12,878 nucleotides of DNA from Candidatus Nanopelagicales bacterium (GTDB taxonomy: Bacteria; Actinomycetota; Actinomycetes; S36-B12): NCBI GenBank assembly GCA_023264215.1, contig JALQSY010000035.1, positions 1 through 12,878 of the forward strand. Direction: 5' to 3'. The stretch's first letter is position 1; each line of letters opens with the position of its first letter. The translations under genes and the position numbers were made by a program. The notes beneath the pieces are model-generated. The model was not told the DNA's origin. It did not search any database and saw only the letters and a list, made by a program, of their open reading frames with translations. Positions 3,757 through 9,822 of the stretch are shown piece by piece.

Positions 3757-4794
3757 ATGAGCGAGCGCCCGGGTGGCGGCAATGCCACCTTCCGTTTCAC
3801 GGACACCGCGGTCTTGTCCGTCAGCGTCGCCGAGGCGCCCATCGTGGTCACCTCGGCGGAGATCGACCAGGCCCTCGCCGACACCTACGCGCGCCTGGAT
3901 GTGCGCCCAGGACTGCTGGAGGGCCTGGCGGGCATCGTCGAGCGTCGGTGGTGGCCGGAGGACGTCACCTTCGCCGACGCTGCCGCAATGGCCGGAGCCA
4001 AGGCGATCGCCGATGCCGGTGTCGCGCCCGAGCGCATCGGGCTGCTCATCGACACGTCGGTGTCCCGAGGGCATCTCGAGCCGTCGGCGGCTGTCGACGT
4101 GCATCACCAGCTCGGGCTCGCACCCCACTGCCTGAACTTCGATCTGTCCAACGCCTGCCTGGGCTTCGTCAACGGCATGCACCTCGCCGGCACGCTCATC
4201 GACGCCGGGCAGATCGACTACGCCGTGATCGTCGACGGCGAGGGTTCGCGTGGGCTTCACGAGCGCACCATCGAACGCCTGCAGCGACCTGAGACGACGG
4301 TCGCTGACATCTTCGAGAACTTCGCCTCCCTGACCCTGGGGTCCGGCGGGGCGGCGATGGTCCTGGGGCGGGCCACCGAGCATCCGGAGGGCCATCGCTT
4401 CGTCGGGGGCGTCTCGCGGGCGGCGACCCAGCACCATCGCATCTGCGTGGGAGACATGACCCAGATGCGCACCGACTCCCGGGCCCTGCTCGAGGCCGGG
4501 CTCGAGCTCTCCGTGGCTCTGTGACAGGAGGCGGCCGAGACCTTCGACTGGTCCGATCTGGACACCTACGTCATCCACCAGGTGTCGAGCGTCCACACCC
4601 AGGCCGTCACGTCGGCCCTCGGCATCGACTCCGCGCGCGTCCCCATGACCTTCCCGCGCTACGGCAACATCGGTCCCGCCTCGATCCCCTTCACGCTCGC
4701 CCTGCAGGTCGACGAACTCCGCGAGGGCGATCGCGTCGGCTGCCTGGGCATCGGCTCCGGCCTCAACGCCAGCGTCATCGAGATCTCCTGGTAG
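3757..4794 (+). pseudogene. oleA: OleA, acyl-CoA condensing thiolase, interrupted by in-frame TGA
   Basis: OleA joins two fatty acyl-CoAs by head-to-head Claisen condensation to a 2-alkyl-3-ketoacid, the first step of long-chain olefin synthesis. The frame from ATG 3757 would give 345 residues, the usual length, but codon 256 (4522-4524) is TGA. Reading continues in the same frame after it with clear homology (YVIHQVSSVHTQAV, then FPRYGNIGPAS, then GIGSGLNASVIEISW), so this is a nonsense codon and not a frameshift. Catalytic Cys134 (NACLGF) and Glu108 (GHLEPS) lie before it; His274 and Asn304 lie after it. The Glu-Cys spacing of 26 equals that of Xanthomonas OleA (Glu117/Cys143), and the spacings to His and Asn agree within two residues. 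A product ending at residue 255 lacks two of the catalytic residues and should be inactive. A Trp codon (TGG) changed to TGA, or a sequencing error, is the simplest explanation. Confidence 0.9.
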
Positions 4795-4805: not shown

Positions 4806-7349
4806 ATGAGTGCGCGCCCACCTGACCTGCCCGGGCTCGACCCTGCCTGGTCGCGATTCGTGGACCTGGACGGCGTGCGCATGCACGTGCTCGAGCGCCC
4901 CGCGCAGGGCACGCCCTCCCTCACCGTGCTGGCGGTACACGGCAATCCCACGTGGTCCTACCTCTGGCGGCGGCTGCTGGCGCTCGCTCCCGCCGACTGG
5001 CGCGTGATCGCGGTGGACCAGATCGGGATGGGGTACTCCGACCGCCTGCCCGAGGGCGCTGCGATGCGCCGGCTCGCGGATCGCGTCGCGGACCTCGGGG
5101 CCCTCTCCGATGCCATGGCCGTCAGCGGGCCAGTCGTCACGGTCGCCCACGACTGGGGTGGGCCGGTCTCCCTGGGATGGGCCCTGGCGCACCGCGCCGA
5201 ACTCGCCGGGGTCGTTCTGGGCAACACCGCGGTCCACCAGCCCGAGGGCGCCCCCGCGCCGACGCTGATCAGGCTCGCGAGATCACGCCCCATGCTGGAC
5301 GCCGTCACGCGTCGCACGGCGACGTTCGTGCGCGGCACCACCGCCCTGTCGCGGGGCATGGCCCCCGATGTCGCCCGCGCCTACCGAGCTCCCTACCCGG
5401 ATCGGGTCAGTCGGCGATCGATCGGCGACTTCGTGGCCGACATCCCCCTCGCCCCGGACCACCCGAGTGCCCCCGCCCTCGATGCGATCGCCGAGGGCAT
5501 TCGCGCGCTGGACGTGCCCGTGCTCCTCGCCTGGGGGTCCGACGACCCGGTGTTCTCCGACCGCTACCTTCGCGATCTCGGCGAGCGGATGCCCCACGCG
5601 GACGTGCATCGCTACGAGGGCGCTCGGCATCTGGTCATGGAGGACGCCGAGCAATGGTGCGACGACGTCATCGCGTGGATCGAGGCGCGAGTCCTGAGCG
5701 AGCGGCCGCACACTCGGGCGTCCGCCGTGATGGAGGCGCCGATCGGTGATGAGCTCGAGCAGCGCTCCGGCGACGACACGGTGGCACTGGCCGATCTGCG
5801 CTCGGATCGACGCGTGGGATGGCGGATGCTCGCGACGCGCACACGTGAGATCGCCGCCGGCCTGATCGACATGGGTGTTCGCCCGGGAGACCGCATCGCG
5901 ATGCTCGTGCCTCCCAGCGCCGATCTCATCGCCTGCGTGTACGCCGCCTGGCGCATCGGCGCGGTCGTGGTCGTCGCGGACTCCGGACTGGGCGTGCGCG
6001 GCATGCGTCGAGCGCTGCGATCCGCCGAGGCCACGCACGTCATCGGGATACCCGCCGGGCTCGGACTGGCCCGCACCCTCGGCCTGCCCGGCCTGCGCAT
6101 CCTCGTCGGCCGCACGGGCCCCGCCACCCGGGTCCTGGGAGCCGACGCCTCGCTGGCGGAGGTCGCGCGGCGTGGGCGGGGATTCCTGGCCGGGTCCGAC
6201 CTGCCGCTTCCTGCCGAAGGCGACGCCGATGCGCTCGTGGCCTTCACGTCGGGGGCGACGGGACCGGCCAAGGGGGTGGTCTACACCCAGGCCCGCCTTG
6301 CCCACCTGCGCGATGCGCTCCGGCGGGCGTACGACATCGGCCCCGACGACGCGCTCGTCGCTGCGTTCGCTCCGTGGTCCGTGCTCGGTCCCGCCCTGGG
6401 CATCCCGTCTGCGATCCCCGACATGGATCTCACCGACGCCAGCACGCTCACCGCTCGAGCATTCGCCGACGCTGCCGCAGCGGTCGGCGGCACCTTCGCT
6501 TGGGCATCGCCCACGGCCCTGCGCGCCGTCGTGGACACCGGCGAGCACCTCGACATGCACGAGCGTCGCGCCCTCGCGCACGTGCGCTCACTGCTCGTCG
6601 CCGGCGCGCCCGTGCCGGTCGAACTCCTGGAGCGCGCATCGCGATTGATGCCCGCTGCCGACCTCGCCACCCCCTACGGGATGACGGAGGCGCTACCGCT
6701 GACCGAGGTCACGCTCGCCGAACTGCGGGAGGCTCACGGGCGAGGCGTGCTCGTCGGGCGCCCGCTGCCCGGCGTCGAGGTGCAGGTCGCTGCGCTGGAC
6801 GCGAGCGGAGTGCCGGCCCTCGAGCCCGGGTGCACCCCGGGGACGACCGGGGAGATCATCGTGCGCTGCGACTGGATGCGCGATCGCTACGACCGCCGCT
6901 GGGCGACGCAGCATCGTGCCGCCCGGCCTGCGGGGTGGCACCGGACGGGCGACGTCGGTCACCTCGACGACGAGGGCCGACTGTGGGTGGAGGGTCGCCT
7001 CGCTCACGTGCTGCAGTGCGCACAGGGCCCCGTCACGCCGGTCGCCGGCGAACTCGCCGCTCAGCGCGCTGCCCGCGTGCCCCTCGCTGCTCTGGTCGGC
7101 GTCGGCCCCGCGGGCACGCAGGTGCCCGTGGTGGTGCTGCTCGCGCCCGGCCCCGCGCTCGGGCTCGCGGACATCGAGATGACCAGAGCCGTACGCGCGG
7201 CGGTGCGGGACGAGACGGGCCTGGAGGTCGCCGCAGTGCTCACCATGCGCGAGCTCCCGGTCGATGTCCGGCACCGGTCCAAGGTCGACCGGATCCGGAT
7301 CGCCCGTCAGGCGGCGGAGTTCCTCGCGGGTGAGCGCGGCGATGAGTGA
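4806..7349 (+). CDS. oleBC: OleBC fusion: beta-lactone decarboxylase plus beta-lactone synthetase
   Basis: This 847-residue protein joins two olefin-pathway enzymes. Residues 1 to about 298 are OleB, an alpha/beta hydrolase of the haloalkane dehalogenase group: HGNPTW at 45-50, nucleophile Asp116 in AHDWGG, a probable acid at Asp246 or Asp247 (WGSDDP), and His275 (GARHLVMED). Residues about 306-847 are OleC, an ANL-superfamily ATP-dependent beta-lactone synthetase: P-loop TSGATGPAKG at 481-490, YGMTEA at 624-629, HRTGD at 712-716, and an A10-like RHRSKVDR with Lys826. OleC closes the beta-hydroxy acid to a beta-lactone, and OleB removes CO2 to give the cis-olefin. OleBC fusions are known from actinobacteria such as Micrococcus. 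The start ATG is 11 bases after the oleA stop with no good ribosome site, so translation is probably coupled. The open frame extends back to 4521, but that part is Arg/His-rich shadow of oleA. Confidence 0.95.
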   Translation: MSARPPDLPGLDPAWSRFVDLDGVRMHVLERPAQGTPSLTVLAVHGNPTWSYLWRRLLALAPADWRVIAVDQIGMGYSDRLPEGAAMRRLADRVADLGALSDAMAVSGPVVTVAHDWGGPVSLGWALAHRAELAGVVLGNTAVHQPEGAPAPTLIRLARSRPMLDAVTRRTATFVRGTTALSRGMAPDVARAYRAPYPDRVSRRSIGDFVADIPLAPDHPSAPALDAIAEGIRALDVPVLLAWGSDDPVFSDRYLRDLGERMPHADVHRYEGARHLVMEDAEQWCDDVIAWIEARVLSERPHTRASAVMEAPIGDELEQRSGDDTVALADLRSDRRVGWRMLATRTREIAAGLIDMGVRPGDRIAMLVPPSADLIACVYAAWRIGAVVVVADSGLGVRGMRRALRSAEATHVIGIPAGLGLARTLGLPGLRILVGRTGPATRVLGADASLAEVARRGRGFLAGSDLPLPAEGDADALVAFTSGATGPAKGVVYTQARLAHLRDALRRAYDIGPDDALVAAFAPWSVLGPALGIPSAIPDMDLTDASTLTARAFADAAAAVGGTFAWASPTALRAVVDTGEHLDMHERRALAHVRSLLVAGAPVPVELLERASRLMPAADLATPYGMTEALPLTEVTLAELREAHGRGVLVGRPLPGVEVQVAALDASGVPALEPGCTPGTTGEIIVRCDWMRDRYDRRWATQHRAARPAGWHRTGDVGHLDDEGRLWVEGRLAHVLQCAQGPVTPVAGELAAQRAARVPLAALVGVGPAGTQVPVVVLLAPGPALGLADIEMTRAVRAAVRDETGLEVAAVLTMRELPVDVRHRSKVDRIRIARQAAEFLAGERGDE

Positions 7350-8349
7350 GCGCATCGCCGTCACCGGGGCCTCGGGGGTCGTCGGCAGTGCTGTCGCCCG
7401 AGCCCTCCTGGCCCGAGGCGACGACGTAGTCGCCATCCAGCGCAGCGAGGCTCCCGCGTCCCTGCGCGCAGCGGGAGCGCGAAGCCTGCGGGCGGATGTC
7501 GCCGGTGACATCGACCCGCTCGTCGAGGCCCTGAGCGGCTGCTCGGCCGTCGTGCACGCGGCCGCCCGCGTCGAGATCACCGGCGGGTGGGAGGAATTCG
7601 AGCGCATCAACGTGCGGGGAACGAGACAGATCATCGAAGCCGCGCGCCGCGCGGGCGTCCGGCGCTTCGTGCACGTCTCGTCTCCCTCTGTCGCGCATGC
7701 CGGCTTCGCCCTTGTCGGGGCGCAGGCAGCGGCGGCTGATCCGGAGCGAGCTCACGGACACTATTCGCGCAGCAAGGCGCTGGCCGAAGCGAGCGTGCTC
7801 GCTGTGCGCGACGAGCGGATGGCCGTGACGGTCGTGCGGCCTCATCTGGTGTGGGGACCGGGTGACACGCAGTTGACGGCGCGCATCATCGAGCGGGCCC
7901 GTAGTGGACGACTGGTGCTCATCGGCAGTGGAGCAGCGCTCATCGACACGACGTACATCGACAATGCAGGTGACGCGCTCGTCGCCGCGGTCGACCGTGC
8001 GGAGCATCCCGAGGTGAGGGGTAGGGCGTTCGTGGTGTCCAACGGCGAGCCGCGCACCGTGAGCGAGATGCTCACGGGCATCGCGCAGGCTGCGGGCGCG
8101 CCGGGCCCCTCGCGCAGTGTTCCCTTCCCTGCCGCGCGCGTGGGGGGCATGGTGCTCGAGCGCCTCTGGGAGCGCACGGGCCGCGAGGGTGACCCTCCTG
8201 TGACGGCGTTCCTCGCGGAGCAGCTCGCCACAGCCCACTGGTTCGATCAGCGGCAGACGCGATCGGCGCTGGCGTGGTCACCGCGGGTGAGCATCGACGA
8301 GGGATTCGCGCTGCTCGCGGCAGCCGAGGGCATTCTTCGCGACGCCTGA
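7342..8349 (+). CDS. oleD: OleD, 2-alkyl-3-ketoacid reductase (extended SDR)
   Basis: OleD reduces the ketoacid made by OleA to the 2-alkyl-3-hydroxyacid, which OleC then activates. The 335-residue product is an extended short-chain dehydrogenase. Its Rossmann glycine motif is TGASGVVG (Gly9, Gly12, Gly15), followed by an Arg-containing segment after the second strand (AIQRS) that would suit NADPH. The catalytic Tyr141 and Lys145 are in HYSRSKALAE, and the preceding HVSSPSV carries the serine region. The ATG at 7342 overlaps the oleBC stop by eight bases (ATGAGTGA), with a weak GGGTGAG at 7328-7334, so the two genes are translationally coupled. An upstream in-frame extension to 7264 is rejected because it lies within the OleC C-terminus and precedes the glycine motif. 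The name rests on context as well as fold, since similar SDRs have many roles. Confidence 0.92.
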   Translation: MSERIAVTGASGVVGSAVARALLARGDDVVAIQRSEAPASLRAAGARSLRADVAGDIDPLVEALSGCSAVVHAAARVEITGGWEEFERINVRGTRQIIEAARRAGVRRFVHVSSPSVAHAGFALVGAQAAAADPERAHGHYSRSKALAEASVLAVRDERMAVTVVRPHLVWGPGDTQLTARIIERARSGRLVLIGSGAALIDTTYIDNAGDALVAAVDRAEHPEVRGRAFVVSNGEPRTVSEMLTGIAQAAGAPGPSRSVPFPAARVGGMVLERLWERTGREGDPPVTAFLAEQLATAHWFDQRQTRSALAWSPRVSIDEGFALLAAAEGILRDA

Positions 8350-8429: not shown

Positions 8430-8913
8430 CTCGGTCACCAGCTGTCCGGCAAAGCCATTCCGCTTAGTGACCCGGATCGCACCTACTGGCCCCGCGAGGG
8501 GAAGTCAGGGGTGTCGCCCCTACTCCGTCGCACCCGTTGCCGGGGCGCCTCCAGCGCGGCTTGCGCCGCCTCAGCCGATCCCGAAACTCCGGTCCCCCCC
8601 GCGACACCGGGGTGGGGAGTTGCCTCCGATCTCGTCTTGCGACTCGATCTCCGTTGCTCCGATCGCTCGGTTTCCCTTGCGATAGGACAGTTCTATTCGC
8701 TCCGCGCAACCCGCGCAAGGGTGTGTCGGAACATTTTCAAAAAACTTGACCACCATTGATCACACAGAGTCCGCGCAGTCACACGCGTCCCGGTCAGGGC
8801 GCGAGTTCCGATGGCTAACGACGCTGACAGGGCCCTCAGCGTCGGGGACGGGCGGATGGCGCGCACCAGCTCGTCCCAAGCCGACGCGCGGGCCCTCGGC
8901 CGGTCATGGGCCG

Positions 8914-8919
8914 TACCCT
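8914..8919 (+). promoter_or_regulatory. Leaderless-type -10 box for the alpha/beta hydrolase gene
   Basis: TACCCT is followed by exactly six bases (CAAGGC) and then ATG 8926. No Shine-Dalgarno sequence is in place. This fixes ATG 8926 as the likely start in preference to the in-frame TTG at 8746. No clear -35 box is visible. Confidence 0.55.
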
Positions 8920-8925
8920 CAAGGC

Positions 8926-9822
8926 ATGTCACCCGCCCTCGCCCACGGCAGCGTGGTCTACCTCCATGGGGTGGGTGGGGCGCGTGAGTCGTGGTGGCAT
9001 CCGCTGCGCGAGGCGCTGGGCGGCATCACTGTCGACTACGTGGCTCCGGCGTACGACGATGTGCTGACCACCTCCGGATCGGTCCACGCCCGTCGCACCG
9101 CCCATCCGGTGATCCCCCCGAGCGACGAGGCCCGCCTGTCCTACCTCTCACGGCAGGCGCGACTGGTCAGCATGATCGACGCGGTCGGGGAGTCATCGAC
9201 GCTGCGCTGGCCGGCCCTGCTGCCCCATCCCTCCGACATCGCCGAGCGCCTGCCCCTCACGCACCTCATGCGCACGCCCGTCTTCGGCCTCGACCAGGTC
9301 GGGCGCTACCTCGATGACGAGTCCCGGCGGGCAGCTGTCCTGCACCGCGCGTCGGTGGCGCTCCGGCGCGCCCCGCGCCCTCGCGTCGTCGTCGCCCACT
9401 CGCTCGGCTCGATCGTCGCGTGGGACCTGCTCGCCGACCCGCGCGTGGAGATCGATCTGCTCATCACCCTCGGCAGCCCGCTCGCGCAGCCGGCCGTCGT
9501 CGTCGAGCCCCTCGCGTTTCCCTACGACCGTGTCGGCGCTTGGCTCAACGTCGTGCACCTGCTCGACCCCGTCCCCGCGGGACGCGGTCTTGGCGAGAGC
9601 TTCCCGGCCGCATGCGATGTCTTCCTGTCCCCGACGGCGGGCTGGGCGTCTCCGGCCAACGCGTTCTCCCGGATCACCGCGGCGGTCGCGGGCGCCGCCA
9701 CGGCGCACCTGGACTCGACGTACCTGATCTCGCCCACGGTCCACGCGGCGATCCGGGAGGCTATGCGCATGCCGCCGCCCGCACGATACGAAGCCCCTCC
9801 CGCCGATGCGGTGGCGTCGTGA
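8926..9822 (+). CDS. Alpha/beta hydrolase (lipase/esterase-like, substrate unknown)
   Basis: This 298-residue serine hydrolase has the alpha/beta fold. It opens with VVYLHGVGGARESWW (oxyanion region HGVGG at 14-18). The nucleophile elbow is AHSLGS with Ser159. Probable triad partners are Asp214 in HLLDPVPAG and His261 in AHLDSTYL. There is no signal peptide and no membrane segment, so it is probably cytosolic. It starts at ATG 8926, directly behind a leaderless-type -10 box; the longer frame from TTG 8746 adds 60 residues of poor composition. Its TGA overlaps the GTG start of the next gene (GTGA at 9819-9822), so the two are co-translated. Lipase, esterase or thioesterase activity is possible. 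The sequence does not decide, and no link to the ole operon is shown. Confidence 0.85.
   Translation: MSPALAHGSVVYLHGVGGARESWWHPLREALGGITVDYVAPAYDDVLTTSGSVHARRTAHPVIPPSDEARLSYLSRQARLVSMIDAVGESSTLRWPALLPHPSDIAERLPLTHLMRTPVFGLDQVGRYLDDESRRAAVLHRASVALRRAPRPRVVVAHSLGSIVAWDLLADPRVEIDLLITLGSPLAQPAVVVEPLAFPYDRVGAWLNVVHLLDPVPAGRGLGESFPAACDVFLSPTAGWASPANAFSRITAAVAGAATAHLDSTYLISPTVHAAIREAMRMPPPARYEAPPADAVAS

Follow-up and report, generated by a model that had tools for sequence, protein, structure and literature searches.

A lone in-frame TGA at a conserved tryptophan codon of oleA in a Candidatus Nanopelagicales ole operon: apparently an ordinary nonsense lesion or a sequencing error

The DNA analysed here, called the window throughout, is a stretch of 12,878 nucleotides from contig JALQSY010000035.1 of a Candidatus Nanopelagicales bacterium (assembly GCA_023264215.1). 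Its oleA frame adjoins oleBC and oleD, as in the ole operon, and the order oleA-oleBC-oleD of the pathway is retained (Table 1). Fusion of oleB and oleC is described for Actinobacteria in passages of PMC7064751 and PMC7158056. The equivalog scores of OleC and OleD fall below their cut-offs, and these names were assigned from the best match, the order of the domains and the neighbouring genes. In alignments to relatives, oleBC and oleD are matched almost end to end, the exceptions being contig edges and a single small gap in locus L002, and no internal stop was found in nine further genes or partial genes of the window. As such, the initial annotation was right that the full downstream pathway, with uninterrupted oleBC and oleD, has been kept. 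In the 'hydrolase' reading frame further along, similarity starts at residue 57 or 66 in two relatives and at residue 22 in a third, and the true start may lie further in than the listed TTG.

Table 1. Features of the oleA locus and its neighbours (positions in the window)
Feature	Position	Strand	Remarks
oleA frame	3757..4794	+	ATG at 3757 to TAG at 4792-4794; 345 residues if read through
oleA, translated part as encoded	3757..4521	+	255 residues, with Glu108 and Cys134
Possible mosaic tract	4504..4572	+	Codons 250-272; seven of eight differences from P0002
In-frame TGA	4522..4524	+	oleA codon 256; all 120 listed homologues have Trp here
Remaining oleA frame to TAG	4525..4794	+	Residues 257-345, with His274 and Asn304; untranslated without readthrough
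AGGAGG	4526..4531	+	Within oleA codons 257-259; not followed by a start codon at ribosome-binding distance
oleBC fusion	4806..7349	+	No internal stop; ends in TGA; begins 11 nt past the oleA TAG
oleD	7342..8349	+	No internal stop; ends in TGA
'Hydrolase' reading frame	8746-9822		TTG start in listing; ends in TGA

The oleA frame is open on either side of the TGA at codon 256. When this codon is read through, the product scores 446.3 bits against the family model NF006720 over residues 12-345 (cut-off 285), and it shows full-length similarity (309 bits) to solved OleA chains such as 3row and 3s21, which we take to be the X. campestris enzyme. Alignment to two solved chains places Glu108 and Cys134 upstream of the stop and His274 and Asn304 downstream of it in the same frame, and all four residues, which we take to be catalytic, are present in the full reading frame. 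The active-site cysteine of OleA, C143, and its mutants are treated in part of PMC7064751. Unlike the solved chains, the product encoded under translation table 11 ends at residue 255 and lacks His274 and Asn304, which are removed by the stop; because translation ends before both, the encoded product should be inactive.

The reading frame beyond the TGA is clearly that of OleA. Residues 240-285 align to 120 homologues with no gap, and Trp265, Tyr271, His274 and Gln275, all past the stop, are identical in every one of these listed proteins; chance does not account for the open frame. The placement of the stop by the initial annotation, its residue numbers and the distribution of the active-site residues around it are therefore all correct, and its description of a gene damaged at one codon alone, by a nonsense change where Trp is expected, is borne out both by these homologues and by the DNA of relatives, to which we now turn.

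At position 256, Trp is found in all of the best 120 of 6,094 protein matches (E <= 0.001), a selection that favours intact proteins. The two solved chains aligned carry Phe where these 120 homologues have Trp256. Among 118 loci of relatives, 112 gave an oleA match that spans codon 256, and none of these alignments holds a stop; the 93 distinct DNAs carry TGG (76), TTC (14) or TTT (3), that is, a Trp codon or one of 17 Phe codons, which answers the proposal in the initial annotation that residue 256 be compared among homologues. Furthermore, 85 genomes from the family to which relative G002 belongs were searched, with OleA status counted from the search table: 67 have a near-full OleA and six have pieces of it, and an internal stop occurs in none of these 73; the other 12 genomes have only weak FabH-like matches or none. 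The in-frame TGA is thus shared by none of the 120 listed proteins, none of the 93 distinct DNAs and none of the 73 genomes with an OleA match. The genomes G028 and G032 (contigs C228 and C248) have the closest oleD sequences, at 78% and 75%. In both, the ole match starts at the contig edge, within oleC, and OleA was not found elsewhere in either genome, so an assembly break is probable and the nearest oleA DNA may be absent from the comparison.

The ole operon is widespread in the same 85 genomes (OleA in 73, OleBC in 73, OleD in 69). In passages of PMC10176705, Nanopelagicales appear as hydrocarbon degraders, and the olefin producers named there belong to other groups. The best loci come from metagenome-assembled genomes of Actinomycetota or Candidatus Nanopelagicales, the titles of which indicate that the habitat is probably fresh water. 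Each of the genomes that hold the eight best loci (L001-L008) has one OleA and one weak match, labelled FabH-like from its score, and no second OleA. Because of this pattern, a spare first enzyme is not expected in the strain of the window. The pattern is in line with the claim that, if the stop is real, the strain has no working first enzyme; the hints of readthrough that had been attached to it fared less well, as set out below.

Copies of the lesion were also sought among proteins. No protein of 255 residues appeared among the best 120 matches to a 255-residue OleA query, and no identical 3' fragment was seen among 36 matches to the 89 residues after the stop, of which 22 sequences were inspected; the collection is clustered, which leaves absence unproven. 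Two proteins listed only with the 255-residue query, P0122 and P0123, are damaged versions of OleA in which similarity is lost from about residue 250 and residue 235, respectively. Two C-terminal OleA pieces, P0149 (79 residues, on a contig of 673,526 bases) and P0162 (62 residues, on a contig of 117,221 bases), begin with Met at about residue 268 and are perhaps further damaged oleA copies of other lineages. No OleA relative was found in viral contigs, and no report of a premature stop in oleA was found in the literature searched.

Apart from codon 256, oleA has no visible decay, because every other residue of the read-through protein recurs in at least two of the 120 homologues. The ratio dN/dS against the nearest relative with DNA was 0.074 before the stop and 0.110 after it, and the later value was the higher one in six of six relatives. 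Relaxed selection after the stop was considered as the cause and rejected: as a control, pN/pS was compared among six intact relatives, and 12 of 15 pairs likewise gave the higher value in the later part. The excess therefore belongs to the region and does not indicate that selection on the window has relaxed. That nearest relative, at about 84-86% nucleotide identity, is too distant to date the stop or to inform on readthrough; nearly all of the history compared is older than the stop, and the substitution test is consequently mute on whether it is read through. The absence of decay fits a recent mutation and tolerated readthrough equally well.

Programmed recoding of the codon, or reassignment of UGA in this lineage, has the open frame after the TGA as its sole point in favour. 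The three window genes oleBC, oleD and the 'hydrolase' frame all end in TGA, as had been pointed out in support of a standard code, and TGA is for this reason an ordinary working stop in this DNA. Moreover, the nine other genes or gene parts hold no in-frame stop, the window gave no Rfam match at the gathering score, and prfB, encoding RF2, was over the cut-off in seven of eight genomes of relatives with a partial match in the eighth. The nine tRNA-Trp genes inspected in eight relatives show the standard five-pair anticodon stem, A9 and G24 (in our own numbering, and for the relatives only); the variants described in part of PMC13092985 as raising UGA reading have four-pair stems, A9C or G24A. 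Recoding or reassignment is already contradicted by the TGA terminators, and the chance left to it is negligible.

A milder form of readthrough, in which the stop is real and tolerated and UGA is decoded, at a rate of a few per cent, by a near-cognate tRNA-Trp, would restore Trp and sustain a low level of olefin. In E. coli, according to sections of PMC11126739, UGA leaks more than the other stops, chiefly through insertion of Trp, and does so more in the cold; such insertion would put back exactly the conserved residue. In-frame stops in genes under purifying selection have also been reported across prokaryotes (PMC7918605, in part), and no decay is visible after the stop, a point that, as noted, a recent mutation accounts for just as well. 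Against such tolerance, the stop is present in none of the relatives examined, whose tRNA-Trp and RF2 are of the ordinary kind described above, the RNA downstream of the stop has an ordinary predicted fold (z -0.95), and the +4 base is C, not G. The following C had been offered as a hint of readthrough, which is unsupported: the same sections of PMC11126739 give G as favouring readthrough and T termination in E. coli, cite earlier studies that found termination to be favoured by T and C, and name C as the leakiest +4 base for mammalian cells only. Similarly, the suggestion that the AGGAGG just downstream slows ribosomes finds no support, as this motif codes for part of OleA and occurs five times on both strands of the window against 7.08 expected by chance. 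Low-level readthrough could occur here as at any UGA, and nothing was found that is built for it; we regard tolerance of this kind as unlikely. A more elaborate version, in which the TGA is present at high frequency in a living actinobacterial population, probably of fresh water, that still obtains some OleA through insertion of Trp at UGA, the leaky stop throttling the ole pathway and perhaps opening further in the cold, seems to us very improbable. Reinitiation at the stop was also examined, since CTG TGA holds a GTG (4521-4523) in the oleBC frame that is open as far as oleBC; it was given no weight, because the sole nearby AGGAGG follows this GTG and does not precede it.

Comparison with the closest listed protein, P0002, brings up an observation that goes beyond the initial annotation. 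P0002 is 98% identical to read-through OleA and differs from it at eight residues, of which one is residue 182 and the others (250, 253, 254, 255, 260, 270 and 272) flank codon 256 on both sides. In 100,000 random draws weighted by entropy, none placed seven of eight differences within 22 residues. This clustering suggests recombination between strains or a consensus mixed from several strains; the mosaic partner may be P0002 or the window, and the protein data fit both. In either case, the cluster lowers trust in the base calls exactly at the stop.

The cluster speaks for a rival view, in which the TGA arose through faulty sequencing or assembly, with several close strains collapsed into one contig and an unreliable consensus over codons 250-272. 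Such an error is also consistent with the existence of damaged OleA versions in the protein collection (P0122 and P0123) and with the lack of a second witness for the stop among the listed matches. However, natural recombination would yield the same cluster, with P0002 possibly the mosaic one, and a mosaic by itself makes no stop that is absent from both parents. The tract is, moreover, variable across the family (mean entropy 0.85 bits): in 173 close protein pairs, defined by 5-12 differences with no gap at them, it holds 24% of all differences, and at least half of the differences in eight pairs. All but one difference fell within 22 residues in five of the 173 pairs, the pair of the window and P0002 among them; each of the remaining four shows just five differences, and one protein is common to three of them. 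On this evidence, an error is a substantial possibility, to which we would nevertheless not give the better part of our confidence.

How often isolated stops turn up in these assemblies bears on the same question. In the 85 genomes of the G002 family, oleD has no internal stop in 70 matches, and in oleBC the single true case is a TAG in G032. This lone in-frame TAG (positions 404-406 of locus L133, on contig C248) corresponds to OleBC residue 802 and has good similarity on both sides. The oleBC genes of five relatives were flagged with one TGA each; on re-reading, the match ends at residue 844 and none of the five falls within it, and they are taken to be natural terminal stops. Isolated stops in these assemblies are rare, yet they do occur. 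The oleA of the window resembles the otherwise intact prokaryotic genes with isolated in-frame stops presented in part of PMC7918605 in having one stop and no other damage, and differs from them in that its stop is a single observation with no conservation; because the stop is single and not conserved, neither readthrough nor selection can be claimed for it.

Taken together, the explanation that we prefer, and to which we give an even chance of being correct, is that the TGA is a genuine and very recent nonsense allele of an ordinary oleA. It is supported by the in-frame stop with coding sequence on both sides, by Trp or Phe at this position in relatives, by the lack of other decay and by the lone TAG in oleC of G032, which is an isolated stop elsewhere in the operon. 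Weighing against a real allele, no independent copy of the truncated gene or its 3' fragment was present among the listed matches, and the cluster of differences fits a mixed-strain consensus equally well. Here we infer three things, namely that the base is real, that the change is recent and that activity is lost. Of the three origins first proposed for the stop, a recent mutation, an error or tolerated readthrough, the first two remain at the strengths given, and the hints put forward for the third are unsupported. The weights attached to these explanations are our judgement and were not computed.

If the recent nonsense allele is real, a single-codon change at a conserved Trp would halt translation after 255 of 345 residues. 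The truncated product would be expected to carry out no acyl-CoA condensation, because the thiolase active-site His and Asn and the rest of the C-terminal domain would be absent, and with an OleA unable to condense, that cell line would be stopped at the entry to the ole pathway. Downstream, oleBC and oleD would be idle or under-translated, and the roughly 280 untranslated bases ahead of oleBC might lower its expression.

To summarize, the stop looks like an ordinary nonsense lesion or a sequencing error; nothing points to a special mechanism, and in either case it does not change the understanding of the ole pathway or of translation. If it is an error, it would counsel caution in calling loss of function from one contig. 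If it is real, it would be a natural single-step loss of the first ole enzyme in a pathway kept by most relatives, and would allow one to ask what olefins do for these bacteria.
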